From Panorpa germanica (taxonomy: Eukaryota > Arthropoda > Insecta > Mecoptera > Panorpidae): DNA of 64,000 nucleotides. Of this stretch, positions 336-58,139 are shown in pieces. How positions within the stretch are numbered: the stretch's first letter is position 1; each line of letters begins with the position of its first letter. The DNA lies in NCBI GenBank assembly GCA_963678705.1, contig OY783204.1, positions 4,282,334 to 4,346,333 of the forward strand, given 5' to 3'. A program made the position numbers and the translations under genes. Under the pieces are notes generated by a model. That model worked only from the letters and a program-made list of their open reading frames with translations, was not told the origin of the DNA and ran no database searches.

Positions 336-339
336 AGAG

Positions 340-2801: not shown

Positions 2802-2873
2802 CGTTGTATCCATCGATTTGTAATGTGATTATAGTTGTTTAATAATGTATATATATTGATAGATTATATTATT

Positions 2874-8159: not shown

Positions 8160-8520
8160 TATATACAAATGTAATAGATACAGAAATAATTACTGGAAGT
8201 CACACTGGTGATCACGCTCTTATTCCTAAAATAGTTTTAGCTGCTTCTGATATAAATCTTCCATTTATTCTTAAAAGAGTTCAGTTTCTTGTCGATTAGC
8301 ATTTGCTATGACAATAAATAAATCACAAGGCCAAACTTTTGAAAAAGTTGGTGTTTTATTACGGGAACCAGTTTTTACCCATGGCCAATTATATGACGCG
8401 TTTTCAAGAGTTAAATCATCCAATAATTTAAAAATTGAAACATTAACTTCTGTTGCTAAATCAAAGAAAGATATATTTACATCTAATGTGGTTTATAAAA
8501 ATGTACTTCTATTAAAATAG
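8160..8520 (+). pseudogene. Second Helitron, helicase C-terminus
   Basis: Resumes the helicase interrupted by the mariner: NVIDTEIITGSHTGDHALIP, FILKRVQF, a broken codon at about 8295, then MTINKSQGQTFEKVGV and THGQLYDAFSRV (motif VI, with A to D change in LYVA), ending at TAG 8518-8520. No CTAG-type Helitron 3' end could be placed within the next few hundred bases, so the right boundary is open. Confidence 0.85.
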
Positions 8521-21974: not shown

Positions 21975-23240
21975 AGTAATAATTCATATGATAATATTGT
22001 ATCTAATTTTGCTATTTGTGACCACAAAAAACTTGAAAATGTTATGGAACAATTTTGGACGACTGAGAAAGTCCCAGAGCATACAGATAGGTGTTCTGAG
22101 GAATATTTAAAAGCTGAAAATATTTTTCAAAAATCAGTAGTACTTAAAAACAATACTTTTAATGTTGATTTGCCATTAGTTAGCCCAGTCAATGAACTGG
22201 AATTGGGGGATTCTTTCTCAGTTGCCTTACAAAGATTTTATGTGTTAGAGAAGAGATTTAAACGAAATCCTTCACTATTGGAGGTCTATAAGAAATTTAT
22301 TGATCAATATGTAGAGATGAGACATGCCATAGAAATTGATATAGGTTCTTATGATGTTTACAATGCTCCTAATTACTTTCTAGCGCATCATGCAGTAACC
22401 AATAATGACAGCAAGACTACTAAATTGCGTGTGGTCTTTGATGGAAGTATGCATTCTAAAAACAAAGTTTCTCTTAACGACGTCATGCTGAATGGTCCTG
22501 TGGTTCAGGGTGAGCTTTTGGATATTCTCATATTATTTAGAACTTATATGTTTACATTAATCTGTGACATAGAAAAAATGTTCCGCTGTGTCCTAATAAA
22601 TGATACTTACAAGGTGTTACAAAATATTTTATGGAGAGACGATCCAAGTAATCCCATCATTTGTTTGCAATTACAGACAGTAACATACGGACTAAAGTCT
22701 TCTACCTTTTTGGCCACACGGTGTCTCATAGAACTTGCCCATCGCTACAAAGATAAATATCCTTTTGCTGCAAGAGCAATGCTCTACAATACGTATGTTG
22801 ATGATGTCATAGGTGGGTGTGATGATGTGGAACAATTACTTGAATTAAAGGCTCAATTAATTGATTTATTGCACTTAGGTAATTTTAAATTGCACAAATG
22901 GTCTTCGAATCATCCCTCAGTACTCGATGACATCTCTAGTGATAAAAGATATATTGAAGAATTGGATTTAAATAAAACAAACATTATTAAGACATTAGGT
23001 TTGAAATACAATATTATTTCAGACACATTTACTTTTAAGTGTCCTGACACCAATGGTGATAGTTTGAATACTAAAAGGAAAGTACTCAGTTTTATTGGAA
23101 CTCTATTTGATCCATTAGGCTTGATTGGTCCTATCATAGTAGTAGCCAAGTTAATTATGCAAGAACTTTGGTTTTTAAAAATAAATTGGGATGCATTGCT
23201 GCCTGCCAAACAACTACAGATGTGGGAAAGGGTCCTCTCA
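21975..23240 (+). pseudogene. BEL/Pao reverse transcriptase
   Basis: Continues the gag-pol frame after the nonsense codon. Shows NYFLAHHAVTNNDSKTTKLR, VVFDGSMHS, ICDIEKMFRCVLI (first catalytic Asp), the substrate block YGLKSSTFLATRC and NTYVDDVIGG (YVDD catalytic box). The connection domain follows, with GTLFDPLGLIGPI. The frame is broken near 23240 by a one-base change; RNase H is in the next frame. Confidence 0.9.
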
Positions 23241-23761
23241 ATGGTCTTAAAACAGCAGACAGTATTTCAGTTGATCGACTTTTAAAGAAAGAAAATTTTG
23301 TGAGTGCAGAGTTGATAGGCTATGCAGACGCATCCATGAAAGCGTACGGGTGTTGCCTTTACTTGAGAACTGTTACAGCAAATGGCAAAATAAAAACAAA
23401 ATTAATTTGCTCCAAGTCTCGTGTGGCTCCATTAAATAAGGTACTTACAATACCCCAACTAGAACTTAATAGCGCAGTCTTGCTGGCGCAGCTCTCATCT
23501 AGAGTCAGTAAAATACTTACGCCTAGATTTGAACATAAAGTTTTCTTGTATAGTGATTCCCAAATAGTCCTTGCTTGGATTCAAACTAAAAAAATAAAGG
23601 CTAATACCTATGTCAATAACAGGGTAAAGCAAATTACACAACTTACTGATAAAAATTCATGGTACTATGTAAAGTCAGGTAATAACCCGGCTGACTTAAT
23701 TTCTCGTGGTGTAGAACCACAATATTTAAAGGATCAGTCTCTTTGGTGGCATGGTCCTTAA
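23238..23761 (+). pseudogene. BEL/Pao RNase H
   Basis: Degrades RNA of the RNA-DNA hybrid. ELIGYADASMKAYGCCLYLR carries the first Asp, IPQLELNSAVLLA the Glu, FLYSDSQIVLAWIQ the second Asp, and NPADLISRG the final Asp. The frame ends at TAA 23759-23761, after WWHGP, where the same frame continues with YLSDCDF; this is another nonsense mutation rather than a natural end. Confidence 0.9.
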
Positions 23762-25360
23762 TATTTATCAGATTGTGATTTTAAACATAATCATTCTTAT
23801 GATTTAAATACAGTACTTCCATCACAAGGTGAAGGTATTAACTATAATGCTTGTAACATTGAGGTAGAACAAGCACCTTTACCGCTGGATTTACTTGAAA
23901 AATTTTCTAACATTAATAAACTACAGCGTGTCTTAGCTTACATGTACAGATTTTTTAATAACTGTAAGAAGAATAACAGTGACAAATTAAATGGACATTT
24001 ATCTCCAAAAGAACTTCATGATTCCCTATTAGTTATCATTCGTTCAGTCCAAAAACAAGTATTTTTTAAAGAAATTAAATGCCTCTTAAGTGACACAAAT
24101 ATCAAATCTGGTATAGGTAGTCTCCATCCTTTCATGGACAGCTCTGGCTTGATTCGTGTTGGTGGCAGGTTGCAAAATGCAGGCATTGCAAAAGACAAAA
24201 TGCACCCAGTCATACTGCCAAAGGCTAACAATATTACTTCTATGATAATTAAAAATGAACACTTACGCTTGCTCCATGCTGGTGCTAGATTAGTACTCAG
24301 CTCCTTGTCACAAAGGTTCTGGATTATCAATGGCATACGTGAGGTCAAAAAGGTAGTTCACAAATGTGTTATATGTTCGCGATTGAAGGCTGAATCTGCT
24401 AAACAATTGATGGGTTCTCTACCACCTGACAGAGTTACAGCCACGAGACCATTTCAGCATGTAGGTATAGATTTTTGTGGACCTTTTAATATGAAGATAG
24501 CTCGCATACGCAAACCATTGATTACCAAAGGCTACATTTCTTTATTTGTTTGCTTTTCAACGAAGGCCATACACATGGAAGTAGTTTCTGATTTAAAAAC
24601 TGAAACATTTTTGGCATGTCTTAATCGTTTCATTTCTAGACGCGGCATGCCCACTAAAATTTACTGTGATAATGCTAAAACCTTTAAGGGTGCCGCTAAT
24701 GAATTAAAGGAATTGTATAATCTACAGAGCAATATGTCTCATAGAGACACTGTTATAAACTTTTGTAATAATATATATATTAAATTTATGTTTATACCTA
24801 GTTATGCTCCTGAATTTGGTGGTATATGGGAAGCAGGGGTGAAAAGTGTGAAGCACCACCTTAAGAGAGTAGTTGGAAATTTGACCTTAACTTATGAGGA
24901 ATTAAATTCTGTTGTTATCCAAATTGAAGGAGTGTTGAACTCTCGACCACTGCTCTCACTTAGCCCAAATGAATATAAATATTTAACTCCAGGGCATTTT
25001 CTAGTTGGCACTGCTTTGACTGATTACCCTGATGTTAACTTAACAGATGTACCAGTCAATCGTCTTAAGTTTTGGAATATTGTCAAAAAATTAAAACAAG
25101 ATTTTTGGCAAGCGTGGTCAAAAGACTACCTCACACAGCTTCAAAGCCGTCCCAAGTGGAAATATGCTAATGAAAACTTAAAAGAAGGTGATTTAGTTAT
25201 TGTGAAACATTTAAACTCACCTCCACTAAGTTGGCCGATGGCCAGAATTACAAAGGTCTTTTCTGGGAAAGATGACAAGGTGAGAGTGACAGAAGTAAAA
25301 ATTGGTGATAAGGTATACAATAGACCTATCACAAAATTATGTAAATTGCCATTAAATTAA
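23762..25360 (+). pseudogene. BEL/Pao integrase
   Basis: From about 23942 an unbroken frame of 472 codons. The zinc-binding H-H-C-C domain is seen in HLRLLHAG...HKCVIC. The catalytic core has VGIDFCGPF (Asp), YCDNAKTFKG (Asp) and PEFGGIWEAGVKSVKHHL (Glu). The C-terminal DUF5641-type domain has VGTALTDYP and GDLVIVKHLNSPPLSWPMAR. Integrase itself looks undamaged, but earlier breaks prevent a full polyprotein. Confidence 0.9.
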
Positions 25361-31955: not shown

Positions 31956-32942
31956 GCGCAAACAATATACCTTTTAAAACTTACTCTTATCAACCTTTTA
32001 AAACATCTCAATCTCAACAAACAAAACAAACGAATGTTTGGAACAAGAAACTCCAAATGCCCATTGGAAAACATTGGACTCATATGGATACAACTTCCAC
32101 GGTTAGACCAAATAACAACTGGAGACCAAATTTTAATACACCAGGCTTAAACTATGTAGCCGAAGAATTGAATAATATAGAAGGAGAACCCGAAGAAGAG
32201 CAAGGATATGAAGTAGTAGAGGAGGGCGAAGAATACTACACATATGAAAACCAAGAGGAAAATACACAGCATTTTCACATTCACGGCATCACGGAGCATT
32301 CACGGAGAACACATAGTATTAAGCAACATACGACATGACTCTCTGCCTTACATAATAAACCCAATACCAAATATCCAGCTCTTATTAGATACATGCAGCA
32401 ACAGAACAATCATAAACCCAAAACTTGCATACACCACCATACCATAAATGATAGAAAACGAAATGTTCACTATCAAAAGTACACACGGAACTACTAAACA
32501 TAACCAGGTAGCTCATGTACAAACATTTCCGGTATTCCATTCAAAAAACAAATGTAAAGTGTATTTATTTAGATTCAACAAAAAATACGACGGCCTTACA
32601 GGCTCTGATCTGTTAAATACAGAAAAGGCAAAAATCGATTTTGAAACCAAACAATTTATTACCGAAAAAGCAGTTATACATATTTATTTCCAAGATGCTT
32701 GCGACATTCAAATAGATCAAATACAAATAAGAAATGGTCATATGAATCGGAAAGAGAAAAATCACATTTGTGAACTCCTAAAATACTACCCTGACCTCTT
32801 TAGGGAAAACCACGAGAAACTCAGCTTCACGAAACATATCAAACATGAGATTACTACCGCCAACGAAGTTCCTATTTACAGTAGGAATTATAGATATCCT
32901 TACGTCCATAACAACGAAATCAATAGGCAAATCAAAAAACTA
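31956..32942 (+). pseudogene. Gypsy gag tail, protease and start of RT (left part)
   Basis: Gypsy of the 17.6/297-like kind. An open frame from about 31956 to 32338 is the gag tail, Asn/Pro/Gln-rich then strongly acidic (EEEQGYEVVEEGEEYYTYE). Protease follows: LPYIINPIPNIQLLLDTCSN, where the active-site triad D-T-G is D-T-C. From 32448 comes YDGLTGSDLLN, then the RT N-terminus ITTANEVPIYSRNYRYP and NNEINRQIKKL. The frame is cut at 32942 by the Mutator-like element; its last nine bases (32934-32942) are the left copy of the target duplication. Confidence 0.85.
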
Positions 32943-33415
32943 AGGTCACCAAAGTTAGCCCCTCAAAAATATTTTTTTTTTCTATTTTCGACTTTTTTTC
33001 TATTAATTCGTTTGTTCATCGTTTGTTCTTAATTGTTCGCTGTTAATAATTGTTTGTTCCCCATTTATTTATTTAAAAAAAATTAATTAAAAATATATCT
33101 TCAAGTTAGCCCCCCTATTGCAATCTTTAATATTTTTCCGTCAATAATGACTCGTAAATATTTATTTTCGATTGTTCGTGCATAAAATACATTTGTTCTC
33201 TTTCGAAATTACTCATTTTTTGTTTAATTAACTATTTTAATTAGTTGAATGTATGTTTGCAAAATTTGTGTATTGCGCATGCGTCAACCATACGTTTAAA
33301 CTTTCTACGCGGTTGTTTTAATCGTGAAAAAAAAAATACAATTTTAAATCCTGAAGGAGCAATTAATTGGTATACAGTTTAATTAAAAAAATTAAAAAAT
33401 AAACTAATAAAATAA
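32943..33415 (+). repeat. Left terminal inverted repeat (about 470 bp)
   Basis: Matches 40755-41227 in reverse complement with only scattered single differences. Blocks such as TATTGCGCATGCGTCAACCA and CCTGAAGGAGCAATTAATTG are shared. Similarity fades in A/T-rich sequence at about 33415. It contains a second, internal AAGTTAGCCCCCC motif (about 33104) echoing the terminal CAAAGTTAGCCCC, a possible pair of transposase-binding sites. Confidence 0.9.
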
Positions 33416-33824
33416 TAAACTAATAAATAAATAAAAATAAAAAAAAAAATATATTATTCATCATAATTTAATTAACGACCAAGGACTTTACACATATCAT
33501 TTAATTATAAATAATTAAATACAAAGTCGCATAGAGGTTATGGTAGCTACGTGGTTGTTTACCGTGAAATAAATGATTTTTCAGTTCTAAATTTATATAT
33601 GTAAACATTGAAGCTAAATATGTAAATTATTACAAACAAAACTTTGAAAGTACAGGTAATTTTTACTATAAAAATTAATTTATATTAATCACATTAGGCA
33701 GAGTATAACGACGATTAGTAGTTTGTTCAGTAAGTAATTGTAACCACTTTAAAAATCTTAATTATTTAAATGCTAATGAATTTCTTTATTTTTTCCAGAA
33801 TATTGTGTGAAATATATTAATATA
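33416..33824 (+). promoter_or_regulatory. 5' region of the transposase-USP gene
   Basis: AT-rich sequence between the left inverted repeat and the ATG. A splice acceptor (TTTATTTTTTCCAG) at 33799 lies just before the gene, so a noncoding first exon and a promoter inside the inverted repeat are likely. The ATG at 33825 is preferred over the in-frame GTG at 33807. Confidence 0.45.
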
Positions 33825-36800
33825 ATGCCAGCAATATCAGTAGTACCTGTTGATTTGGCAGTTAATGCGTTAATAAAGTATATAACATACTTTAATACTG
33901 ATAAATTGCCAGAACATAGCTCGAGAGTATGGCAAGATATATCTGATGAATTAAAAGGATTGTGGAAAGTCCCAGCTGTAAGGATTAATGTACGGCAAAA
34001 TAGAAGGAAAATTTTAACACTTGCTCGAGAAAAATGTGGGATTTTTATCCAGAATAATGAAAATATTTCCTCCAATTTGAATGTTTCAACTGCCAGTTCT
34101 GATAATTCTAATACTACAAATGATTTAAATGACAATGACAGTGATAATAATAATGAAAAAAATGGTGAACTTGAATCTACTGTGAGTGACAACGATGATG
34201 AGTGTGAAGATTTCCACGTTACAATTACACGAGAGCAATGGAATCTAATGAAACATGACAAACCATTTATTTATAATGGTCGCAAGTACTATGGTTTTGA
34301 ACCTGGTGTGTGGACAAATATTGTTTCATTCGCTTTTTGGGAACAATACCGTCTCAAATGTGCTTTTGTATTTAAACGTGGTAAAATTAATGGAAGTAAT
34401 AACTATGCAGTCATGAATGGACGATGTAAAGATCGCTCTTGTCTTAACTCTGTTCGTAGAATTATTAAAGATCCTCCTTTAGATGACGGGCCAGTTGTTA
34501 TTACCATGAAGTGTAGGGATACACGTTATTCCAAGCATGCTGATGTAAAACGTCCTCTTAATGGTAAAAAACGTAAAGAAGTTCAGCCAAAATTACTACG
34601 TTCTGGTGTTCTAGGTTGGAGGAAGGAAGAAGCTAAAACCATTTTAAAACCTGGAGATACTGGATCGCCTTTTTTATACAATTCAAGCACACTTCACCAA
34701 GCTAAAAAAGAGGCGACAGATGAAGAACTTGGAATTCATTCTGATGATCGAAGAGATATGATATTAGCTATACGCAAGATGAATCAGGATCCATCGTATG
34801 TTAATTCTATTTTATGGATTGGTGATTCACCATTCTTTGTCTTCTATGCAACTCCAACACAATTTCACACTTACGCAGAATATAGGCGAATTCACAAACA
34901 ACACTCATCAATAGAGATTGATGCAACTGGTGGATTAGTTAAAAAACTGTCAGATTCTCGAGATAAAAAAACTGGTCATATATTCCTGTATCAAATTGTT
35001 ATTAATTTTGATCATACTTCGATTCCGGTTTATCAAATGCTATCAGAAAAGCATAGTGCAAAGTTTATTGCCTTTTGGCTTTCTGAATGGGCAGAAAAAG
35101 TTAATTTACCACAGCAAGCAGTCTCTGATGGATCCCGAGCTCTTTTAAATGCAATGTCTGTTGCATTTAATGGTAAATCTTTAAAAGATTATATTAACTT
35201 TATGTTTGAAAGTGTAACCACCAGTGCTAATTTACAACCACGTACTTTCATTAGATTGGATGCAGCACACTTCCTTCATGCAGTTAGCAGTTGGAAATGT
35301 TTTCAAACTGCCCTGCATAAAATCGTAAAATCATTTTTTCTATACTGTGTCGCATTGATGATTGATTGTGAAGAACTATCTAACTTGGAGGAAATTTTTA
35401 TGATGACATTAATAGTGTGTAGCACAGAGTTTGAAGATACAATCATTGCTATGGGTGACCGCGTGATGACTCCAGGTGAAGCTAGAAAATATTTAGAAGA
35501 ATTAGTGGCAAAACGGAATCCTGATCTTACTGTTATCGATTCTGTTGAAGTTGATCCTGATAAAACTGTAATTTTAGAAGAACTATCATCAAAAGCTACT
35601 AATGACAACGGGTGGTCAGTAGCTCTTGTAACATGGATTGAAAATCTTTGTAAAAAAGTTAATACAACAATTTTTATTGGTCAAAAGCTTAACACTCATT
35701 ATGTCCCAGGCCTGTATGCTGATCTCGTTGATAAGATGAAAGATTTTCCACTTTGGACAAAAGTATGCACACCTAAGACTATGTCACGGCCAACTTCTTG
35801 TTACGTTGAAACAGACTTCAAAGACCTGAAAATGAATTTGAGAAAAAAAGTAAAATTACCTACGACAGTAAACAAGTTTTTAAAATTACATATTGCTGAC
35901 ATTTTAGGTGGAGTTAATATATTCCGATCAAAACTAACGAAATTTGTAGTCGATAATTCTTCCAACGAGTATCAGAAGAAATCAAAAGAAGAGAATGAGT
36001 ATGAAAACTGGAAAGGATTCGGTAAAAATGAAACTGCGACAGATTATGATTGGGCAACAGATTACGGAAATGTGCCGGATCAGGTTGAACATAATGATTC
36101 AGCTACCGTGTCGGAGAATCCTATTGACTTGGTGGAAGATACGAATTTAGCAGAGAAAAATATTGATCAAAATGACTCTGTAACTGCATTCAACATTGGT
36201 GATGATCACAACTATAGCTCTATAAGTATTCAAGAAAAACATGAAGACTCAAATATAAACACTAGTATTATTAATGAAAAAATCAACAGCTCTGATGAAG
36301 AACTATCATTTAAACATAAAACCAATCAAAATGATTCTGTGGTTTCGTTAGAGGATCAAAATGATTCTAGTGACAACCGAAATTTTGATGAAGACAAAAA
36401 TTATTGCCTCGATATTAGTATCACTAGTGTAGAAAATCACGAAACTATTGATGTCGGATTATTAAATACTGACTTTCAAATTGTTACTGTTACTTCTACT
36501 GATTCTCTAGATGATAGTATTTCTAATTTATCATCATCCACAATATATCTCGATAATGAAAAAAAAAATACTCATGAATTTTTGACAGTAAAACAAGATA
36601 GTGATCCTTTATCTTTAGCAATAGAAAACATGATGAAACAAAAAATGATGAAGAAAAAAAACGGTCATTACTTCCAAAAATGTCCAGAAGTTGCTCTATT
36701 GAATAATTTAGTAGATGATGAAAAATCTGAAGGTACCAAAAAAAGAAAAGATTTTTTACTTCGTAACGGTAATAAAACCGGTCCAGTTAAATTTAAAGGA

Positions 36801-37691
36801 ATTAAATGGACAGCATTGAATACTTGCCCCTTTGACTCAATAGTTCAAATTATCTTCACAGCAGCAATCGATAATACTCATTATCGTCACTTCATAAATA
36901 ATTCTGACCTTTCAATATTTAAATTTGTTAAAAGTTTCATAAAGACCGGAGCAACGCAGGAAATATACGAACAACGAATGGCTATTTTACATCCTATTTT
37001 TGACACAAAAAAATTGGAGGAAAATAGTTTAAAAATCAACTTGGCTCCCTACATAAATTGCCAAGATAACGTCATCAAACTTTGGGAAAAATTACATGAA
37101 GCTGCACCAAGTGTTATTGAAACTACTTCATGCTCAAATAGTTTGTGTCAAATTTATACGCAAACTATTCCAGCTATAAGTGCTAACCACAGAATAATAA
37201 CAAGACATGGATTTAAAGCTCTTGAAAAAGCTTTACAATTTTATCACAAAATTTTCAACGTTCGTTGTCCATTTTGCTTTAAAGCAATGGCAACTCGTGT
37301 CACTGTTCCTCAAAAATATCTATTTATTGAATTAGATGTACGGGACGAAAAGCGCGGACCGAGAGGAAAAAGATGTAAATTAAGTGAGCTTCCACTTTAT
37401 TTAAATTTGCAACTCGAAAATAGTGAGGAATCTAAAACTAATTTACGTTATAGGTATATTTATTACACTTGTTAATATTCGTATTTTATGCATATTGTTG
37501 TAAATAACATCAAAAATTTATTTATTTTAAGAATATCAGGCGTTGTGGCGTTTATTGAGGGCCATTACTTGGCTTATTGCAGACGACTAGGAGGTAATTG
37601 GCAGGAATACAACGATTTGTCAATAAAACCTGAATCTGTATCTGATCATGCCAAAGTTGAACTACACGCAGTGTTCTATATATTAGAATGA
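33825..37691 (+). CDS. MULE-like DDE transposase fused to USP-like protease
   Basis: Join 33825-37453 and 37532-37691, 1262 residues. Residues 1-70: helical start. 85-125: acidic, low complexity. About 130-230: Cys-containing region (CAFVFKRGKI, GRCKDRSCLNSV) like the WRKY/FLYWCH-type fingers of MULE transposases. About 325-680: transposase core, SIEIDATGGLVKKL (D366), QAVSDGSRALLNAMSVAFN (D435), RLDAAHFLHAV (D479, H482) and CYVETDFKDLKMN (E662). 740-940: acidic Ser/Asn linker. 985-1262: protease, with Cys box NTCPFDSIVQ (C1001), finger-type Cys pairs SCSNSLC and RCPFCFK, and in exon 2 the His box EGHYLAYCRR...W-EYND (H1221, N1237/D1238) ending LHAVFYI. This order is that of peptidase family C19. 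Donor TATAG|GTATAT and acceptor TTTTAAG|AAT restore the frame exactly. Transposase role is strongly supported; deubiquitinase activity is inferred. Confidence 0.85.
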
Positions 37692-40600
37692 TTAATTCTT
37701 TGAAGAAGAAGCTAATTACCAATGAATATTGATTAAAATTATTATCAATACTTGAATTACTATTAGTATCACTACTAAAATGGTGATATAAGGATTATCA
37801 TTCTCGCTGAATTATTTGAAGGTATTGAACATCTCATAAGTTTTAATACACTGAAATATCTCCGATGGACACATTAAAGGTGAATTAATTTTTATGTTTA
37901 ATAATTTCAATATAAAATCATTATTTTTTTTTTATTCGTAAATTTTATTTATTTAAGGCATCAATAAGATCGTTAAATTATTGAAGTTATATTAGAGCTA
38001 ACTAAGCAAAAGGAAAAAACTATAAATCTTTTAAGTCATTATTCGCGTGATAAAATTATATTTGTGATATGATTATTAAACCTCATAAAATTTAATATTT
38101 TACAGAGTAAGCTTGTGCCAACGATGCTTTTATCAAAGAACTAACAAGACAACAAGATCCGAGATACAATGAGGCTATCACTTTTTTTTTACTAATTACT
38201 ACGTTTTACTAATTACTTTTTACTAATTAGATTTTAGGTAAAAAAAAATGTATAGTACGGGTAATAAAGTTATTATAAATATATTTAATAGAAAATGAAT
38301 TTTTGTTTATATTTAATTTTATTTTTCTACTTGTCAATAAATTAATCAATAAATTTTTCTCTTTATTCGAATAAATTAATTCAACTATAATTGATCTTGG
38401 CTAATTATCGTGCAAACTTTGCGGTCAAAACATATCTGAGTATTTTATAAATACAGATATATTCCCAGTACTAATTTTGTTTTAATCTTTGATTGTAAAA
38501 CGGGCTCTTAATGAATTTAGTTGTGACTTAATGCTTGAAAATCTCTATGATTAGTTTCTTAAAAGTGGTCGGTAACAATATAATTTTAGTTCATTTTAAA
38601 TCTGGAAAAAAATTTATAAAAAAATATCAAGTGATAACTATAACTTATACAGCGTATCATTTAATCATAAATAAAAAAATAATTCATTTTTATATAACAA
38701 ACATTTATTATCTATAAGTGTGATTTAATCAACATTGATGAAATTTTTAATGAGACAAATAAATCTTTAATAAAGGAAATGGAAATTTAAAAAAAAAACT
38801 TGGATAGATTTTTCAATTTTCTTAATGCGGAACTTTTATTATTTCATTTTATTAATATTTAACCTTATATTTTTGTTAATGACAATAGACATTAATTTAG
38901 CTCTGGCAGATTCATACTCGTTATTATCCAGATCTTATACGATTTAGAGAATCTATAAAATTTTTGAAATGTTATTTATACAGCAGAGGTTCTTTTCAGT
39001 AGGTCTTTATTAATATTTCAATTTTTTTTTTGTTATTCGTACCTTCTAAAATTTCGAAAACATTTCTAATTAAGTGATCCACTTTTTATAAATGCAGTTG
39101 AAATAAAAAAGTTATCATCATCTAGATATTATCAAATGTACATATTTTCATCATTCGATATACAAATTATATTTTTATCATAAAAAGAAAACGTATATTT
39201 ATATCAATACATTGTATAATACATTCAGTTATTGACAATAAATTCTAAAAAAACATGATTATAAAAAATAATATTTTATGATTATACATATATAGATATT
39301 TTTCTTGACAAAACAATAACAAACTTAATTTTAATCTTGTCCAAAAAATATCAAATGGCTTGCTCTAGTTATTGAGTGTCTTTTTTTATTCAAAGCTGCG
39401 ATTCTTATTATATTAATTGATATACAATAATGAATGAATTTGATAATTTACAAAAAAAGACCTATGTAAGGAAATTTTTTTCATTTACTCTTGAAAAATT
39501 ATCTCTTTCCTTAACATAACATTAATTTACAAAGTATTGCACTTATAAAAAATAAATATTTTTGTTAGCCTTTTACATTGATTTCATGAGTTTGTGAATT
39601 TTTTAGAGTAATTTAATATAGTTACTTTTTTTTTTTATCAAGGTATAACTAGCAGTGACAGACATTTAATTGTTTAGCTTGTTGAAATGCAACGATATTT
39701 ATGGATGCCGCAAAGTTAGAGGATCAACCAGTTGATTCAGTCAATGATCATAATAATTTGACATGACATCGTGTATTTTCCCATCCACTTGTTATTAATA
39801 TTATACAACTCGATTTTCATGCACATTTTTACGATCTCTCGTTATCTTCATTCGAGTTATGCCGTCATAATTATGGTGGATGAAAAAATTAATTTCATCC
39901 CCATTATAATTTTAAATCAATCTGAAAATAAAATTATTTTTTTAATAAAAACAAATTATGACTATAGTCATTATTACTTAGTAATTTAAACTAACAAACA
40001 TAATAGCTTTATTGTTTTTTCTTAAAAAATGTATATAATAGCTTGTAATAGAGACGTAGATATCTAGATAATCCGAAAATCATTAGAAAATTAAAAAAAA
40101 AATTTATTTAGTAGTAAAATTTTACAGTTACATAATAATTTTTTTATCTGTTTTCACAAATTATTCATGAACAAGATGATAAGTTATACACATTCTTCGA
40201 CAAAAAAATTTAAAAAACTAAAGGAATTTTTTTATATCTGTTATTTTTGTCATGTAACATCCGAAAATTACTAACAGCCCGAACTCTAATACCATATAAT
40301 TATTTATTAATTTCTTCTATGAATATTTTTGAATTTACAAATTCTAATTTTATGATAATGATTGTGACCACCCCATAAATCACAAAATTAAAAATATTTA
40401 ACATAACTTATTTTCTATTTTTAAATAATAAAGATTAAAAATCATAAACAAAGATAGCGTATTAAAACGTTATATGCCTATCATTCTTAAATAATTCAGT
40501 AAAGAAATAATTTTCGCTTCACCGTATATAATTGATATGAATAATTGAAAGACAATTATCTCTTGAAAGAGAAATAATGAACATAAATATTTACTTATTT

Positions 40601-40754
40601 GTTTATATTTTGTCAACCCTTAATATTTTGTCAACCCTATCTTTTTTATACCTTCATAACGACTATGGAGGGTAGAGGTACCTCTACCCTCCATAATAAC
40701 GACAGATGGGAAGGGATGGAAAAAATGTATTTGGTCTAAAGTTTACGCGTATGC
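37692..40754. other. 3-kb AT-rich noncoding interior of the Mutator-like element
   Basis: No open frame longer than about 72 codons and none with a recognisable motif. Contains short tandem TTTACTAATTAC units near 38195-38230, an AATAAA-rich stretch just after the gene, and the palindrome at 40664. Much longer than needed for a 3' UTR; may be captured or decayed second-gene sequence. Confidence 0.5.
40656..40703. repeat. 32-bp perfect palindrome between 8-bp direct repeats
   Basis: Bases 40664-40695 (TATGGAGGGTAGAGGT and its exact complement) form a perfect 32-bp palindrome without a loop. It is flanked on both sides by ATAACGAC (40656-40663 and 40696-40703). The arrangement looks like a minimal inverted-repeat insertion with an 8-bp target duplication. 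Confidence 0.8.
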
Positions 40755-41227
40755 ACATTATTTTGTTTATTTTTTTATTTTTTTAATTAAACTGTATACC
40801 AATTAATTGCTCCTTCAGGATTTAAAATTGTATTTTTTTTTTCACGATTAAAACAACCGCGTAGAAAGTTTAAACGTATGGTTGACGCATGCGCAATACA
40901 CAAATTTTGCAAACATACATTCAACTAATTAAAATAGTTAATTAAACAAAAAATGAGTAATTTCGAAAGAGAACAAATGTATTTTATGCACGAACAATCG
41001 AAAATAAATATTTACGAGTCATTATTGACGGAAAAATATTAAAGATTGCAATAGGGGGGCTAACTTGAAGATATATTTTTAATTAATTTTTTTTAAATAA
41101 ATAAATGGGGAACAAACAATTATTAACAGCGAACAATTAAGAACAAACGATGAACAAACGAATTAATAGAAAAAAAGTCGAAAATAGAAAAAAAAAAATA
41201 TTTTTGAGGGGCTAACTTTGGTGACCT
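40755..41227 (-). repeat. Right terminal inverted repeat (about 470 bp)
   Basis: Reverse-complement match of 32943-33415, ending GGGGCTAACTTTGGTGACCT at 41227, followed directly by AAAAAACTA (41228-41236). Confidence 0.9.
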
Positions 41228-41940
41228 AAAAAACTACTAGATGATGAAATAAATAAACCATCTAATTCACCCGTCTGGATCGTACCTAAGAAAGGCGATG
41301 ACAGTGGAAAAAAAATATTTTAGAATGTTAATTGATTATCGAAATCTAAATAACAAAACAGTGGATGATAGATACCCTATCCCGAACATTTCTGAAATCC
41401 TAGACAAGTTAGGTAGAAGCCAATTCTTCACTACCCTTGACTTCTCGGGATTCCACCAGATCGAAATGGAAGAACATGACATAAGGAAAACAGCATTCAA
41501 CGTCGAGAACGGTCACTACGCGCCCGCCACCTTCCAAAGGGTCACGGACAATGTACTAAGGGACCTAGTACAAAACACGTGTCTTGTATATCTCGACGAT
41601 ATACTTATATGTTTCACCTCCTTACAAGAGCATATGGAGAAACTAAAAAATGCACTAGATAGACTCAGAAATATGAATCTTAAGATTCAGATAGATAAAT
41701 CCGAATTTCTCAAAAAAGAAACGGAATTTCTGGGACACGTCGTTACACAGGAAGGCGTCAAACCAAACCCTAACAAAGTACATGCAATAAAAACATTCCC
41801 AATACCAAAAACCGTGACAGAGATAAAATCCTTTTTAGGACTCGTTGGTTGCCATAAAAGACTTTGCAAAATTAACCAAACCAATGACAAAATATTTGAA
41901 AAAAGGAACAACACAGATACTATACACATCTACCTCACAT
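41228..41940 (+). pseudogene. Gypsy RT (right part, after the Mutator-like element)
   Basis: Continues the interrupted gypsy pol: LLDDEINKPSNSPVWIVPKK. A frame change in an A8 run (about 41312) follows, then FRMLIDYRNLNNKTVDD, FFTTLDFSGFHQIEM (first catalytic Asp), CLVYLDDILIC (YLDD box), FLGHVVTQEGVKPNPNK and IKSFLGLVGC. Another frame change near 41860 precedes DFAKLTKPMTKYLKKG. The copy ends near 41940; RNase H and integrase are absent. Confidence 0.85.
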
Positions 41941-42117
41941 ATAGTGGGTACCTGGCTGCTGATCGACTGCTGATGGGCGGTATTGCCCATATTTACAAAT
42001 AGGGCCATAGGGCGTGATTAACCGATCAAGAAGGTATGCTATATATTATATGTATTTTTTGTTTTCCACAAATTTAACATATATATGAAGTTTAATCTAA
42101 TCTTTTTTTTGTTGCAG

Positions 42118-45992: not shown

Positions 45993-48713
45993 ATGCCGAG
46001 AAAAAGAACTCAGCTTTCTCGGCAGACTGCTGCTGCAAAGCGGCTGCGAGTTTTGCGCAGCAATGAAACTGAGGATGAAAATATGCACAGGTTGGCTACA
46101 CAACGAGCAATTACTGAACAAAACCGTGCAAGGGAATCAAGCGTTGAACGTTCGCAGCGTATAGCCTCACAAAATTTCCGAACTTTGGCGAACCGGCAAA
46201 GGGAATCGAGTTCTCGTTTGGCTTCACAGAATGCCCGAACATTGGCTAACCGCGATCGGGAATCGAGTGCTGAACGTTCTCAACGTTTGGCCTCACAGAA
46301 TGCCCGAACATTGGCTAACCGCGATCGGGAATCCAGTGCTGAACGTTCTCAACGTTTGGCCACACAGAATGCCCGAACTTTGGCTAACCGCGATCGGGAA
46401 TCGAGTGCTGAACGTTCTCAACGTTTGGCCACACAGAATGCCCGAACATTGGCTAACCGTGATCGGGAATCCAGTGCTGAACGTTCTCGACGTTTGGCCT
46501 CACAGAATTCCCGAACTTTGGCTAACCGTGATCGGGAATCAAGCGCTGAACGATCCCATCGATTAGCACAGCAAAATGCCCGATCAACTAGGAATAGAAC
46601 TCGCAGACAACATAATTTATTAAATGCTGCTTTTGCTTATGATTGTACCGTTGACTATTCTGAGCTAAATGATATTGATATTGGTAGAATGGATAAAATA
46701 TGCAACTTATGCCAAGCAAAAAAATGGGCAGCTGAAACTCCTGGACTGTGTTGTAGTGGTGGCAAAGTAAATATACCTATAATTCCGGAACCAACATCCG
46801 TTTTAAAGGAACTGATATCAGGCTCACATCCATCATCTAAGCATTTCTTAAATCACTCAAGACAATATAATACATTATTTCAGATGACTTCATTTGGTGC
46901 CAAAGAAATTCGTGAGGGAAACTTTATGCCCACTTTTAAAGTCCAAGGGCAAGTTTATCATTTAATCGGTGACTTACTTCCAGCTGTAGGGGCACAACCC
47001 GAATTCCTGCAAATATATTTTGTTTCCCATGCAGATCAGGTATCCTTGCGCTCAAATTTAAACCCAAGCTTGCAAATCGATCTTATCGACGTTCTCCAAA
47101 CATATCTTCATGATCATAATACGTATATTCAAAGTTTTAAGTACAATCTAGAAAATAGACCACCGAATGATTTAAAACTTATCATTCATGCTGATGTAAA
47201 ACCTCCTAATGAGCATGGAGGTCGGTATAATGCGCCGGTAGTAGATGAAGTAGCTGTTCTTATGATAGATGAAGACAAAGGTCCCCGTGATATTGTATTG
47301 ACTGCGAGAGATGGTCGACTTCAACGAGTTTCTGAAATTCATAGATCTTATGACCCGCTTCAATATCCCTTACTGTTTCCCTTTGGAAACGACGGATACT
47401 GTATTAATATTCCACAGCAGAATACTACGGCTACATCTAAAACTGTTTCATGTATGCAGTTTTATGCATTTAGATTCATGGTGAGAATAAATGACTTTAA
47501 CAGTATACATTATTTCAAAGGATTATTCAACCAATATTGTGTTGATATGGCGGCAAAAATGATCTCTGAGAGGCTAGACTTCATCAAAAGAAATCAAAAA
47601 AAATTGAGAGCAGAAGAGTACATTCATTTAAGAGATGCCGTCGTAAATGATGGACATATAAACGCTTCTAATATTGGCCAGCACGTTATATTGCCGTCGT
47701 CATTTACAGGATCCCCCAGATTCATGAATGAAAAAAGTCAAGATGCCATGACATATGTCAGGAAATTTGGAAGACCTGACCTCTTCATTACATTTACATG
47801 TAACCCCGAATGGCCAGAAATAAAAAGTGAGTTATTGCCCAATCAACATTCTTATGATAGACATGATTTAATTTCTAGGGTATTTCATTTAAAACTCAAG
47901 AAAATGATAGACCTATTAACGAAGAAAAATATTTTTGGCCCATCGAAAGCCTTTGTTTACAGTGTAGAATGGCAAAAAAGAGGTTTACCTCACGCCCACA
48001 TTTTATTGTGGCTGGCTAACAAAGTTCAACCAGATTCTATAGATGCAATAATATCGGCTGAAATACCTGACATATAACAAGATCCGATTCTTCATAATAT
48101 TGTCATAAAAAATATGATACATGGTCCTTGCGGATTTCATAATCCTACATCACCATGTATGAAAGAAAACGTTTGTTCTAAAAAGTTCCCTAGGCATTTT
48201 ATTTCGGAAACACAAACGGGGGATGACGGTTATCCAACCTACAGACGCAGGTCTCCAGATAATGGTGGAAACACAGCTATAATTCGTGTAAAAGGTACAG
48301 AAATGAGCGTGGATAATCGTTGGGTGGTTCCCTATAATCCACTGCTATCACGAATTTTCAATGCACACATTAACGTAGAGTTTTGTCAATCGGTCAAAGC
48401 TATTAAATACATCTGTAAGTATATTCATAAAGGTTCTGATCAAGCCACATTTTCGTTACAAAGTAATAACGATGAAGTAGAAAAATATCTAAATGGTCGC
48501 TATATAAGTTCCTCGGAGGCGTTTTGGAGAATTTTCCAATTTTCTATTCATGAACGTTTTCCGGCAGTAGTTCATTTAGCCGTTCATTTGGAAAATGGAC
48601 AAAGAGTATATTTTTATAATAATGAAAATCTCCAAGATCGTGTGAACAATCCTTCATCAACGACCTTACAGCATTCTTTGATCTCTGCAAAAGCGACGAT
48701 TTTGCAAAAACCC
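45993..48713 (+). pseudogene. Helitron Rep (HUH nuclease) region
   Basis: N-terminal half of a RepHel protein that nicks and joins DNA in rolling-circle transposition. ATG 45993 starts MPRKRTQLSRQTAAAKRLRV, then seven 23-residue tandem repeats. A Cys region CNLCQAKKWA...LCC follows, then ILPSSFTGSPRFMNEKSQDA, LFITFTCNPEWPEI, the HUH motif KRGLPHAHILLW (H667, H669) and YICKYIHKG (Tyr at 48408 and 48420). TAA at 48075-48077 interrupts an otherwise continuous frame (PDI*QDPILHN), so it is a nonsense mutation. The frame changes near 48710 in LYHEVPQYYVW. One stop and one shift separate this copy from a full protein. Confidence 0.9.
46130..46600 (+). repeat. 69-bp coding tandem repeats in Rep N-terminus
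   Basis: Seven units of 23 residues (RESSAERSQRLASQNARTLA plus NRD). Middle units are nearly identical in DNA, outer ones diverged, and the second is shortened. Arg-rich and likely helical; copy number may vary between elements. Confidence 0.95.
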
Positions 48714-50743
48714 TTTTATATCACGAAGTTCCCCAGTATTACGTTTGGCAAAGAAATTCATTTTCTAGAAGAAGACGCGGGCAAGATGTTGAGGGATATC
48801 CCGGTGTAAAAAAAGACACAACTTTAGGCCGTGTTTATAACATTCATCCAACTCAAACTGAATGTTTTTATTTAAGAATGTTATTGCAATATGTTCGCGG
48901 TCCAATGTCATTTCAACATCTAAGAACCGTGAATGGTGTTATTTTCCAAACGTACCAAGGCGCTTGCAAGGAATTAGGTTTACTGGAGGGAGATGAACAT
49001 TGGCAAAATACCATGTCCGATGCTATCATATCCGAGCCAGCTACAAAATTAAGAGAATTATTTACCACTATCCTTATATTTTGCCAACCATCTGACCCCT
49101 TAGAGTTATGGAATAAATTTCGTGATGTTTTATGTGAAGATATATTAAACAGAATGCGTAATGAGAATCAGGATATGACATTAGCATATAATGATGATAT
49201 ATACAATGATGGACTAATCATAATTGAAGATAAAATTCATGAGATTTCAGATAAATCCCTAACCGACTTTGGGCTTCCTGCAGCAAAAAGAAATAATTCG
49301 CTTCTGGCCCCGTTAGAAGTAGCGTTGCGAAAACCATATAACATAAATGAATTAAATGAGTATATCACACAAAATGAACCAAGATTAGTTAATGACCAGG
49401 TGACAACGTATAATTGTGTCATGAAAAGTGTTCGTTTTAATGAAGGAAGAATTTTCTTTTTGGATGCTCCCGGTGGGACCGGCAAGACGTTTATCACTAA
49501 TCTTATATTAGCAAAAGTAAGGTCTCTAGGAAAGCTAGCCTTGGCAGTAGCGTCGTCAGGTATTGCTGCAACCTTATTAGCAGGTGGACGCACAGCTCAT
49601 TCCACTTTTAAACTGCCCCTAACTGTGTCTTTAGAGAAAGATAGCGTGTGCTCTATACGCAAAAATGGCCCTTCGGGGAAAATTTTACAAGACGTCAGTC
49701 TAATAATCTGGGACGAATGTACCATGATACATAGAGCTCACGTAGAAGCTCTAGACAGAACTCTTAGAGATCTTAGAAGCTGTGATAAAATCATGGGTGG
49801 GATTACTGTTATGTTTGCTGGGGACTTTCGCCAAACTTTACCGGTAATAGTAAGGGGAACTAGAGCAGACATTGTGAAGGCTTGCCTTAAAAGTTCTTCA
49901 TTATGGAAATTTGTAAATATTTTAAAATTATCGACAAATATGAGAGCACATTTGGGGGGAGGTAGTATAACTTTCCCTTCAAAATTACTTTCTGTAGGAG
50001 ACGGGAAAATACCTCATTCTAATAATAAAATTGAAATTGATTGCGATTTAGGAGTAAAAGTGGGTAACATCGAGGAATTAGTAACTAAGGTATACCCTGA
50101 CATCAGCCAAATAGAAAACAAGGACCATCAATGGATGTGTCAAAGAGCAATATTGGCGGCAAGAAATAGTAGCGTTGACGAAATAAATGATATCATTTTG
50201 AGTAAACTCCCAGGAGATATTGTAACCTACACATCCATTGATACCGTGATGGATCAAGAAGATGTAGTTCATTACCCACAGGAGTTCCTCAATTCCTTGA
50301 ACCCAAGCGGCCTTCCCCCACATTCTCTTAAGTTAAAAATAGGTGCCCCAATAATTTTACTAAGAAATCTCAAACCACCAAATTTATGCAACGGGACCCG
50401 ACTTCAAGTAAAATTTCTGCGCAATAACGTCATCGTTGCAATAGTTTTGACTGGTCCAGCAGTTGGTCAAACAGTCCTCATACCCCGCATCCCAATGATA
50501 CCCAACGACTTACCTTTCAATTTTAAAAGAATACAATTTCCGCTTAAATTATCTTTCGCAGTCACAATAAATAAATCACAGGGGCAAACATTCAAACACG
50601 TGGGGATCGATTTACGCCAAGACTGTTTTTCGCACGGCCAGTTATATGTCGCGTTATCAAGATCGGGTTGTGGCGAAAATCAATATGTTCTTCTGCCACA
50701 AGATAATAAAACAAAAAATGTAGTATATGCAGAAGTTCTTTAA
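48714..50743 (+). pseudogene. Helitron PIF1 helicase region
   Basis: C-terminal half of the RepHel protein. After the shift the frame reads LYHEVPQYYVW, GVKKDTTLGRVYNIHPTQTE, LLQYVRGPMSFQHLRTVNGV, then Walker A DAPGGTGKTFITN, SSGIAATLLAGGRTAHS, Walker B IIWDECTMIH, FAGDFRQTLPVI, LSTNMRAHLGG, NGTRLQVKFL, TINKSQGQTFKHVGIDL and SHGQLYVALSRSG. It is open from about 48714 to TAA 50741-50743 and all helicase motifs are conserved. It is called a pseudogene only because it depends on the broken Rep half for translation. Confidence 0.9.
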
Positions 50744-51163: not shown

Positions 51164-54100
51164 ATGTCAGAATATTGTTTTATTTGCGCTAAACTTTTAA
51201 CTGAAAGTGAAATTGTTACTGTTGAACGTGGTATGAAGACATTAATTAATGCAAGTATCGAAAGAGCAGATGAATTTTCGGAGTATCTAAAAAATCAAAA
51301 ATCTGTGACAATACATGAAAATTGTCGTAAAAATTATACTCGAAAGTCTTCTATTGCTGCAGCTAATAAAAGACAACGTGAAGAACAAGAAGCCAGTACA
51401 TCCACAGAAAGTCCTCCTCGTACTAGATTACGTTCGAGTGAATCAGCTTTTTGTTCTAAAAACAATGTCTATTTTGTGGCCAGGAATTCAATGAAGAGTA
51501 TGAGAAAAGAAAACCCTCAGATATTCGCCGTCGAATCAGTCAAGTAAGTACACTTCAATTTAAAGATTCAATTCTGGAAATAGCTTGGACTCGTAACGAT
51601 ACTACAGCAAAAGCTGTTCTTGCTCGACTCGAATTTGAATTGAACTCGAAATATGATTTAGTTGCCGCAGAAGCTAAATATCATCACGGTTGCTATGCTT
51701 CTATCATGAAACCTTCCACTGGACTTAAAATCGGTCGTCCTAAAGACAAAGCTACGAATCGGGCAATGGAGGAAATATTTACTTACATGCAAAATAGCGA
51801 TGACTGTCAGTTTACTTTAAACGAATTAAAGAATATTTGCAAAACTACGACTTTAGATAACAGAACGATTAAGCTACGACTAAAACTGAAGTATGGTGAT
51901 AAACTTATTATCACTGAGAAATCGGGAGCATCAACATTCATATGCTTAGTAGATAATCATCATGATATTTTGAATCAAGCCTGGTACGAAAAAAAAAATG
52001 AATAAAAAAGAAGAACGATTCAGAGTCCTAGAGGCAGCTGCAGATATCATTAGCGAAGATATTCAAACCGCAGTGTTTGATAATTCTAACTACCCTCCAC
52101 CAGGTCGCATGTTTGAAGATTTAAATAATGAAATCCCAGAATCGTTGACATATTTTGTAGAAGAAGTGATTTTAAAGAATAAACGATCAAATTTAGATCA
52201 TTTAAAATTAGTATGCACAAATATTTGCCATAGTATCATGACTGCTGTTCGACCAAGGTCTTTTAAGTCTAAGTTACAATTAGGCCTCGCAGTTTTTTTT
52301 CATCGAAGGTTCGGTTCAAAACGTTTTATACAAATCTTTTCGTCATTTGGTTTATGTGCATCCTATAATGAAACAATAATGTATGAGGCAGCAGCAGTTT
52401 TTCATCGTCCTCCTCATGTCCTATCACCAGAAAGTAAAACACTCATTCAATACGTTGCCGACAATGCTGATATTAATGTGAATACGCTCGACGGCAATAA
52501 CACACTCCACATAATGGGTATTATTCAAATTGTTACTCCTAAAAATTCAGTTTTACTAGAAGAGCCTATGCCACGAATAAAAGAAGCTCTTTCAGCAAAA
52601 GATTTCAAAGCAAAAGCTCATGTGCCGATACAGATCTATCAAAATGACGGTGTAGTAGGTTACAGTAAAATAAATGTTACTGATTTTGTTTATGGAACTG
52701 AAACGGTATCTTTCCTCAAAAAAGCTGATGCAGTATGGTTTTATGGGAAATGGAAAAATGAGTCTTTACCTGGTTGGAACTCTAAATCTCAAATTTCATT
52801 TTTACCGTTTATTCACCAACCAGCCAGTAACTATAATACTATCTATACGACTTTACTTTGTGCATTAGAGAATGCAAAACGGTATGGCCAAAATGTATGC
52901 ATCGTGACCAGCAACGTATCCATTTCGACCAGCCCCTGTACGCTAAAGCTCGAGAAATTGTATCAGCCGCACCTGAGGGCTCTGAAGTATCAAAAATCAT
53001 CGTCAGACTCGGAGGATTTCATCTACTGATGTCCTTTCTGGGAGCAATCGGTCATATTATGCAAGGAAGCGACATGAAAGAAGTACTCGCAGAAATCTAT
53101 GCGGTCAAATCATTAGAAAAAATGCTCATTGGTCATGCTTACGCAAGAGCTATTCGAGCTTATACACTACTTCAGCTTACTTTAGCAATTAAAATATTAA
53201 AAGAAGTTGAAATTGATGACATCATGGATGCAGATCTAATCATAAATATCGAGCACATATTAGATAACACTCTTTCATACAATGATATTGAAAATGATGA
53301 TGAAGTATCTGGAGCTTTACTTAATAAATTGAATCAAGAATTAAAAGAATATGAGGAACGAGGACCAACTGCAAAACTTTGGATTCAGTATTTTCATATG
53401 GTTTCTATTGCTAAAGAGTTCCTAAGAGCTGAGCGTATGGGGGATTGGAAAGCTCATTTAAACTGCGTCAAAGAAATGCTTCCTTATTTTCACGCATCTG
53501 CACATTTTCCTTATGCTAAGTCTGCACACCTTTACTTGCAGGATATGCAACAGTTACAAAATTCGATAGATCCTGAAGTTTACGAAAGATTTTCAGACGG
53601 ATTTTTCACAGTTAGGCGTTCTGACAAATTAAGTTGTGGAACTTCAACGAACATGGTAATCGAGCAGTCTATGATGAAAGCCATGAAGACAGATGGAGGT
53701 ATTCCTCGAGGGAGAAGTACAAAAGAGAGTGTCATAAGTAAATGGGTTTATAGTATGCATGCTATGAATACCGTTTGTGAAAAATTAGAAGATCTCGCTA
53801 ACGTTAGGATGGATACGACCGAGCAGCATGTTGATGCAAGTGATTCGCGAATGAAAAAAGATGCTAAAGATGTACGAAAACTTTTCTGTGAGTGTTTCTC
53901 AACGCATGATCCTTTTCCAGACGTTAGCAAAATTGTTTCTATTGCGAGTGGTGTCGTTGGTGATGATAAAATCAATTGTTATAAAGCTCGTGAAGTTGGG
54001 CTTGCTTCTATGGCAAAAATGACAGGACTCACATTCAATAATATTAAATTAAAACGCTCTGACAAAGTTGTTCCTCTTTACGCTATGACTAGTACCATAA

Positions 54101-54276
54101 AAGTTCATGAAGAAAAAGTACCTGTTGACCCTGTCGTGTTGTTCCAACACGACAATGCGACATACATCATTAACGGAGGATACTTACTACATCGCGTTGT
54201 GTGGGATAGTGAAGAAACATTCAACGTTATATTAGATAAATACGATAATACGATAAGTACGATAAATCGTACTTAG
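51164..54276 (+). pseudogene. PIN/CXC family protein, copy 1 (N-terminus to start of PIN)
   Basis: Large protein of unknown family. ATG 51164: CFICAKLLTES and HENCRKNYTRKSS, a first Cys/His zinc site. After a frame change near 51460 comes CLFCGQEFNEEYEKRKPSDI and then AAEAKYHHGCYASIMK, a second site. A shift in an A-run at 51990 leads to VRPRSFKSKLQLG, FGLCASYNETIMYEAAAVFH and NVNTLDGNNTLH. After another shift near 52910 come HFDQPLYAKAREIV, GGFHLLMSFLGAIGHIMQGS, CGTSTNMVIEQSMMKAMKTD and PRGRSTKES. At the end YIINGGYLLHRVVW begins a PIN-like nuclease, but the frame stops at 54276. About 70 residues before that point are missing relative to copy 3. No introns are needed, only frame repairs. 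Confidence 0.7.
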
Positions 54277-56970: not shown

Positions 56971-58139
56971 ATGCCGCTTTCCAGTGTTAACAAATCTGTA
57001 AAAATAAATGATTGTAAAGTTGCAGTGGATCCATTATTACTCTTCCAAAGAATTACTGTCAGAAAACAATTTGAAAGTAATCTTGAAGAATATCTTCAAT
57101 ATGAATTGAGTCCGTATCCAACAGCTCTATTTGATAATGATGGCATGAGAAAAACAACAAAATCGTCATTGTATGACAACATGAGCCCAATTGATTTTGT
57201 TCTCAATGAAAATAATGTGACGTTCATTATTGATGGCGGATTTCTTCTTCATCATGTTGTATGGAGCAGAGAAGATACTTTTTCCATTATTTTTGATAAA
57301 TACATGAATTATTTACAAAGGCATTACAATTCCAAAATAATTGTTGTATTTGACGGATATTCAGACTACAGTAAGAACGTAAAAGCTATGGAGCAGCAGA
57401 GAAGAACTGCTGCACTTTCAAAAAAGTATGAAGTCTGTTTCGATGAAACAATGGTTGTACCAGTTACTCAAGAAAAATTCTTATCAAATCGAAATAACAA
57501 AGATATGCTCATTAATATGTTAATTGAAAAATTACAAGCTGCAAATATTGCTACTAAACAAGCCAGAGATGATGCGGATGTTCTTATTGTTGAAACTGCA
57601 ATTGAAGAATCAAAGTCTGAAAAAACTGCAGTTAAAATAGGACAAGATATTGATTTACTTGTCATTTTAATTGGGCGTACACTGTATTACGAACAAGATA
57701 TTTTCTTTAAAAAAGTTGTGAAAGGAAATGTAAAAACGGAGATATACTCGACTAAAAGTTTTGATAATTATCCTCATTCCAAAGCACATATTTTATTTCA
57801 GCACGCATTAAGTGGCTGTGACACAACTTCTGCGCTTTTTAAAAAGGGAAAAAAATCATTTTTAAAAGTTTTTGAGAAACTGACAAATTTGGATGAACTA
57901 GCTGCAGCAATTGAGGAAGAAAATTGTTCGGCCCAGAGATTATTAGAGAGTGGAAAAAAGGTTGTGGCAGCGCGTGTGGATGTAGAAAAGATGGATGGAA
58001 GTGCTTAGTTATCTATGGATATTGTAATGGACAATCCTGCGAAAATATACTAGAAGTTCTGCTTAACAGTGAAGATGAAGGAGAAGAAACGTTTTCTATT
58101 GTTGAGGAGATTCACGGGACTGAGGGCAATGCCATTTAA
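56971..58139 (+). pseudogene. PIN/CXC family, copy 3 (PIN nuclease and CXC tail)
   Basis: Best copy of the nuclease. VDPLLLFQRITVRKQFESNL, then FIIDGGFLLHHVVW, IVVFDGYSDYSKNV, ARDDADVLIVETAI (57560-57600), GQDIDLLVILIG (57640) and LSGCDTTSALFKKGK (57810), giving the conserved acidic residues of a PIN/FEN-like metal-dependent nuclease. At about 57925 a deletion with frame change joins to EWKKGCGSACGCRKDGWKC and CNGQSCEN, a CXC (tesmin-like) Cys-rich DNA-binding tail ending at 58139. The region between nuclease and tail, present in copy 2, is missing. Start in the window is arbitrary; the N-terminal two thirds are absent. Confidence 0.7.

Follow-up and report, generated by a model that had tools for sequence, protein, structure and literature searches.

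Why would a DNA transposon carry a ubiquitin-specific protease (USP) in one polypeptide with its transposase? The question is raised by a stretch of 64,000 nucleotides from Panorpa germanica (GenBank assembly GCA_963678705.1, contig OY783204.1, positions 4,282,334 to 4,346,333 of the forward strand; hereafter the window), in which a first-pass annotation, made from the letters alone, described a Mutator-like transposon at 32943-41227 that encodes such a fusion. We conclude that the element is an autonomous-looking, recently mobile DNA transposon of the Mutator superfamily, of NOF-like type. The overall explanation that we favor, and consider somewhat probable, is a NOF-like transposon whose protein joins a transposase, a linker and a USP that would protect the protein itself.

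The Mutator/NOF-type element is 8285 bp long and its ends are exact. The same 9-bp target site duplication, AAAAAACTA, stands on its left (32934-32942) and on its right (41228-41236), directly outside a left terminal inverted repeat of 474 bp (32943-33416, forward strand) and a right one of 471 bp (40757-41227, reverse strand). An alignment of the two repeats has a single mismatch and five gap columns; a repeat finder reported the same arms as 443 nt at 99% plus 39 nt at 100%. The insertion splits the pol frame of a Gypsy element, the halves of which lie in the open reading frames (ORFs) 32448-33032 and 41298-42002, the latter matching RVT_1 with E 1.7e-24. When the element and one copy of the duplication are removed, the flanks give an unbroken Gypsy reading frame, PYVHNNEINRQIKKLLDDEINKPSNSPVWIVPKKG, and it is because the rejoined flanks restore one continuous frame that the boundaries are known exactly. 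Alignment and rejoined frame agree on the complete 8285-bp element, 9-bp duplication and inverted repeats of about 470 bp described at first, and we regard this anatomy as practically certain.

The transposase-USP gene lies on the forward strand. Exon 1 (33825-37453) begins with an ATG at 33825 and encodes residues 1-1209 plus two bases of codon 1210; a predicted 78-bp GT-AG intron (37454-37531) interrupts the USP domain, and exon 2 (37532-37691) supplies the His box and the stop codon. The program-made ORF list gives the unspliced frame only, and the predicted spliced product is 1262 aa long with no internal stop. We infer the splice from the reading frame, the GT-AG borders and the related proteins described below (P-numbers). 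It is supported because P0001, from a butterfly, and P0003, a gene model from a wasp, align across the junction with no gap, and because the open frames of eight further relatives (P0005, P0007, P0010, P0012, P0017, P0022, P0028 and P0029), which appear to be unspliced, stop no more than about 25 residues past the intron site. The motif residues named in the first-pass annotation (D366, D435, E662, C1001, H1221 and N1237/D1238) all occur at those positions of the 1262-aa translation. Between the two enzymatic parts lies a fast-evolving linker (residues 746-950; 36060-36674, forward strand) that is 34% identical to P0001 and whose counterpart in the predicted P0003 structure has a predicted local distance difference test score (pLDDT) below 50; these roughly 200 residues are probably disordered.

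The C-terminal domain (residues 982-1262; 36768-37691, forward strand, split by the intron) is a USP, or peptidase C19-like, domain by its fold and its finger cysteines. Its predicted catalytic residues are C1001 (36825-36827), H1221 (37563-37565), which is followed by the aromatic Y1222, and, as third residue, N1237 (37611-37613); the finger cysteines C1103, C1108, C1148 and C1151 fall within 37131-37277, all on the forward strand. We aligned the window domain with those of eight relatives, chosen as complete. C1001, H1221 and an Asn or Asp at N1237 are kept in 9/9 domains, and the catalytic residues stay conserved at about 20% identity. Three of the finger cysteines are invariant in the nine, and C1108 is present in four, with a CX2C pair in its place in the other five. 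Because the catalytic residues are conserved, the domain is likely to be an active isopeptidase.

Excised from the protein, residues 982-1262 match PF00443 UCH (E 5.4e-6; 26.6 bits, the cut-off being 23.9), and three of the nine excised domains pass this cut-off (the window's, P0044 and P0045; best E 6.1e-8). Stronger evidence than the Pfam match comes from the profile search together with the fold. The profile search retrieved 24 PDB sequences at E <=0.01 with yeast Ubp8 as the best (E 1.1e-9), Foldseek likewise gave Ubp8 as its best match (5.5e-10), and the predicted structure of the close relative P0003 has a USP fold across the C-terminal domain. We also considered a protease of the VTD type, which we rejected on motif order: an Asp two residues before the catalytic His occurs in 0/9 domains, and Tyr or Phe directly after the His in 8/9.

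The transposase part was predicted separately as residues 130-745 (34212-36059, forward strand), which hold a conserved Cys/His-bearing N-terminal region, probably DNA-binding, and the DDE core. The model has a pLDDT of 85.4 and a predicted template modeling score (pTM) of 0.78, and its best structural neighbor is the ISCth4 transposase. The catalytic acidic residues, which lie in an RNase H-like core of IS256-type fold as expected of a Mutator-like element (MULE), are D366 (34920-34922), D435 (35127-35129) and E662 (35808-35810), all on the forward strand; in a 32-row alignment (A4) the first two are invariant columns and the third is nearly invariant (>=90%). MULE transposases carry a [C/D]xxH signature between the second D and the E, and here it reads D479-A-A-H482, with both positions nearly invariant in A4. 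In the Foldseek list the transposase alone had no match at E <=0.001, and the fold call rests on a second aligner that re-ranked the Foldseek candidates and in which single domains may score weak in models above about 400 residues. MULE target duplications are 8-11 bp long, typically 9, and a 9-bp duplication flanks the window copy and 19/19 further complete copies. The inverted repeats of about 472 bp fit the range of 14-500 bp given for MULEs in passages of PMC6446971.

The fusion is shared by other insects. Three protein searches returned 9, 39 and 20 matches, 60 distinct proteins in all, with fusion relatives in wasps, an ant and a butterfly. Among named species, the Cys box at least is present in Euphydryas editha, whose protein is the closest relative found (66% full-length identity), in Microplitis demolitor, in Cotesia congregata (P0006, whose frame stops past the Cys box) and in Temnothorax nylanderi. 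When the 60 were scanned for motifs, the Cys box was found in 20, the His box in 10 and both in nine; these are minimum counts, from which loss cannot be gauged, since many of the rest are fragments or end ahead of the last exon, and P0044 has both boxes by eye and was missed by the pattern. Identity to P0001 is 62% in the exon 1 part of the USP domain, 73% in exon 2 and 77% in the DDE core, compared with the value given above for the linker, a pattern that suggests constraint on the protease. One scan of a viral contig collection gave 123 pattern matches, of which 0 were confirmed as relatives.

We compared the histories of the two parts in 21 proteins that contain a DDE core together with the USP domain or at minimum its first portion; the His-box exon is missing from several of them. 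Pairwise distances of transposase and USP correlate at 0.94 (Mantel p 0.0001), and separate maximum-likelihood trees have 14/18 splits in common. The eight discordant splits have bootstrap values of 48-93, the sharpest being the placement of P0007 and P0013 (93/95 versus 80/99). The transposase and USP domains have descended together, and one old fusion, inherited since, is the simplest reading of the two trees. A distant clade (P0039, P0043-P0046, P0048 and P0051), about 20% identical, has the same transposase-USP plan, and its frames continue into the His box with no intron. The sister of the window element in both trees is the butterfly P0001 (100/99 and 86/79), with the braconid wasp P0003 next; this is a host-parasitoid pairing that invites the thought of horizontal transfer, which we do not claim. 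The mitochondrial gene order in the assembly (I-Q-M) differs from the order of ditrysian Lepidoptera, and the host is thus probably not a moth or butterfly of that group.

Within the 464-Mb assembly, the inverted repeat matches at least 40 places. We examined 20 such stretches, and 19 contain a complete element with its own perfect 9-bp duplication; the remaining one (L036, contig C53) has one end only within the stretch and was not counted. The set of complete copies is thus 20, the window copy included. A whole stop-free gene is present in 4/20, and the other three differ from the window by 3-4 residues. Eight more are MITE-like (resembling miniature inverted-repeat transposable elements) and 1.1-1.7 kb long. 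The repeat pairs within single copies differ by 0-4 mismatches and at most two gap columns per 440 bp (nine copies), which indicates recent movement. No other locus with a related USP domain was found in this genome at E <=0.001, in a search limited to the best candidates, and no diverged DNA copies with the USP domain were found here. Derivatives with the USP deleted are twice as numerous as full copies (8 versus 4) and may be a trans-dependent or repressor form.

Several results weigh against an active transposase-USP fusion as we read it, and the first of them concern the domain assignments. PF10551 MULE does not match the window protein as unspliced ORF, excised part or whole spliced product; at E <=0.1 it matches 5/41 relatives (best 5.8e-4) and 1/19 more distant relatives (E 0.01). 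The original call of a MULE-type DDE transposase is supported by its DDE residues, fold and 9-bp duplications. UCH is not matched by the unspliced ORF, by the 1262-aa spliced product as a whole (threshold E <=1) or by P0001, P0003 and P0013 as whole proteins; among whole proteins it matches 0/41 relatives and 2/19 distant relatives. The predicted C19 match is thus obtained with the excised domain, which lies above the UCH cut-off, and is lost with the whole protein. The excised domains of P0001 and P0003, the two closest full relatives, have no Pfam match at E <=0.1. Finally, the SUMO-protease family C98 (USPL1; PF15499) is matched by P0046 with 29.0 bits as a whole protein and 30.3 excised, above its cut-off of 27; at E <=0.1 it matches 4/9 excised domains, of which P0046 alone passes the cut-off, and the window's own domain does not match it.

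Further points of this kind come from the copies. In 8/20 (L020-L026 and L035; 4.34-4.35 kb) the USP has been deleted and the transposase part kept, with element positions 1-3398, 5875-6018 and 7481-8285 retained. Their 842-aa transposase frame is open in 5/8 and broken in 3/8. These USP-less copies have spread, and therefore the DNA that is mobilized need not encode the USP. All five open copies carry P255Q and, six residues past E662, L668Q, and because these changes are common to all of them the five probably descend from one master; for the same reason they do not settle whether the USP is needed in trans. Unique to the window copy is R212 (34458-34460), where 11/11 other copies holding the codon have Gly, and this copy may not be the active form.

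We propose the following for the intact protein. The transposase would bind the inverted repeats, and cut-and-paste movement, the mode of transposition known for the family, would leave the 9-bp duplications. The USP domain would act as an isopeptidase that, held on a flexible linker, clears the transposase, and the complex it forms at the ends of the element, of ubiquitin. Deubiquitination would then delay proteasomal removal and allow more transposition per molecule. Passages of PMC9741609 propose a comparable protection of transposition proteins from the proteasome for the VTDs of Helitrons. We tentatively put self-protection forward as the main function of the USP, and we favor it because a linker of this length and flexibility would let the protease reach its own complex.

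Other roles for the domain have to be weighed. The USP might instead be brought by the transposase to the element or its target and there deubiquitinate H2A or H2B, easing silencing or access. We think this unlikely, with two points in its favor: the top match by profile and by Foldseek is Ubp8, the SAGA deubiquitinase, which has H2B as its substrate, and the fusion would carry the protease to DNA. Also unlikely is that the enzyme removes SUMO or another ubiquitin-like modifier, as USPL1 does, which would make it a counterpart of the Ulp1 domains found in plant MULEs. We raised its odds slightly because P0046 passes the C98 cut-off, and since this distant relative passes it instead of the UCH cut-off, the substrate may be other than ubiquitin. 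However, the domain in the window matches UCH and not C98, three of the nine excised domains pass the UCH cut-off, and no USPL1 chain is among the 24 PDB sequences of the profile search. Less probable still is that the USP edits ubiquitin on factors of repair or replication, at the gap left by excision or where the element integrates; action on repair factors is a general proposal for the Ulp1 and OTU domains of Ginger transposases (passages of PMC2836005), but nothing specific to this element points to it.

Two explanations can be set aside more quickly. The suggestion that the protease matures the protein, in the form of an autoprotease that cuts the polyprotein to free the transposase, is the least likely of the three functions suggested at first and in our view very improbable: the domain does sit behind a long linker in one polypeptide, but USPs cleave bonds after ubiquitin-like C termini, and Pfam finds no ubiquitin-like domain in the protein. 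Most improbable is that this copy alone captured a host USP gene with no role in transposition; MULEs do pick up gene fragments (passages of PMC8277862), but we reject capture here on the four intact copies, the lack of another related locus within the limits given above, the homologues carrying both domains in 21 proteins with largely congruent trees, and catalytic residues kept at about 20% identity. None of the three outcomes that the first-pass annotation named as refuting it was observed.

How does the transposase-USP fusion compare with known systems? The link to NOF of the Drosophila FB-NOF element rests on database names of relatives and not on the Drosophila NOF sequence: proteins from Microplitis demolitor, Cotesia and Lasius niger are annotated as "120.7 kDa protein in NOF-FB transposable element" or similar. 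Drosophila NOF was absent from the three protein searches, which were limited to proteins sharing short words and are silent on whether NOF carries a USP. Literature passages on NOF name no protease domain, and those of PMC8277862 describe FB4, with duplications of 9-10 bp and repeats of about 700 bp, as more likely a MULE. Rehavkus, which we compared by description only, occurs in insects and annelids, resembles MULEs in structure, with long inverted repeats and a conserved set of DDE residues, and is described as having a PHD finger and a minisatellite ahead of the 3' repeat (passages of PMC6446971). In contrast, the window element has no PHD finger by Pfam, and tandem repeats here are short with few copies, the one closest to the 3' repeat having 1.9 copies of 18 bp (40605-40639).

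Other transposons likewise combine a transposon protein with a ubiquitin- or SUMO-type cysteine protease. MULEs and Ginger1 may carry Ulp1 (C48) or OTU domains, which in Ginger1 stand C-terminal to a DDE integrase-like core (passages of PMC2836005), whereas the protease of the window element is C19. Helitrons may carry VTD or OTU deubiquitinases, and the activity of DrT1-VTD2 has been demonstrated biochemically; these are rolling-circle elements, however, and the VTD has an Asp-x-His motif and no aromatic gatekeeper (passages of PMC9741609), unlike the window protease with its Asn/Asp after the His and an aromatic residue directly behind it. Ubp8, USP2, USP12, USP30 and USP36 have the C19 fold and motifs in common with it but are host enzymes and not mobile; identity of the P0003 model to USP30, USP12 and Ubp8 is 14-16%.

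The first-pass annotation knew of no earlier description of the fusion. As a claim of novelty this has to be narrowed, as one sentence from 2010 mentions a Trichomonas vaginalis protein, XP_001314237.1, with transposase_11 and Peptidase C19 (passages of PMC2836005), and the butterfly relative is already labeled "USP domain-containing protein" in the database, its transposon context apparently unremarked. The Trichomonas case, known to us by this mention only, is a single protist protein, and its transposase_11 is not of MULE type. Searches of the open-licence literature in PMC found no description of a USP in a MULE or a NOF element; Repbase and subscription papers lay outside their scope.

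Proteases of ubiquitin or SUMO thus occur in unrelated transposons: Mutator has Ulp1, Ginger both Ulp1 and OTU, Helitrons OTU and VTD, and the present family C19. This recurrence suggests a common need. The family described here offers single-protein fusions, four intact copies in one genome and natural USP-deleted forms, and with these the role of the USP could be tested by one point mutation. MULE surveys, the scale of which has reached 4268 arthropod genomes in a 2026 survey (passages of PMC13359780), may have a gap here. We speculate, in a conjecture whose two parts taken together are unlikely, that an old animal Mutator lineage, comprising the NOF-like elements and the far relative at about 20% identity, uses a targeted deubiquitinase to edit chromatin or the transpososome at its own ends, and that the same lineage yields USP-less derivatives that need or repress the full enzyme in trans, as in the activator and repressor forms of the P element.

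The remainder of the element and its surroundings can be described briefly. Between the gene and the right repeat lies an AT-rich 3' part (37692-40756, forward strand) that is partly absent from other copies; a second gene in these 3 kb or so was considered and rejected, as there is no stop-to-stop frame above 80 aa. Elsewhere in the window we found a BEL/Pao retrotransposon at 22044-25360, with Peptidase_A17 and an integrase with DUF5641, and remains of Helitrons, namely Helitron_like_N at 45993-48077, a PIF1 helicase at 48878-50743 and a PIF1 piece at 3312-4523 on the reverse strand. The ORFs 51998-53029 and 56971-58008 have no Pfam match, and a similar stretch occurs in ORF 52858-54276 (NGGYLLHRVVWDSEETFNVILDKY) and ORF 56971-58008 (DGGFLLHHVVWSREDTFSIIFDKY); perhaps the ORFs at 51998-54276 and 56971-58008 encode an undescribed repeat-borne protein. 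The assembly also includes a mitochondrial contig (C249; L040 and L041) of 16386 bp and 77% AT, with the tRNA orders I-Q-M and K-D, which we take to be the ancestral insect order, and 19 further COX1-like pieces lie in other contigs.

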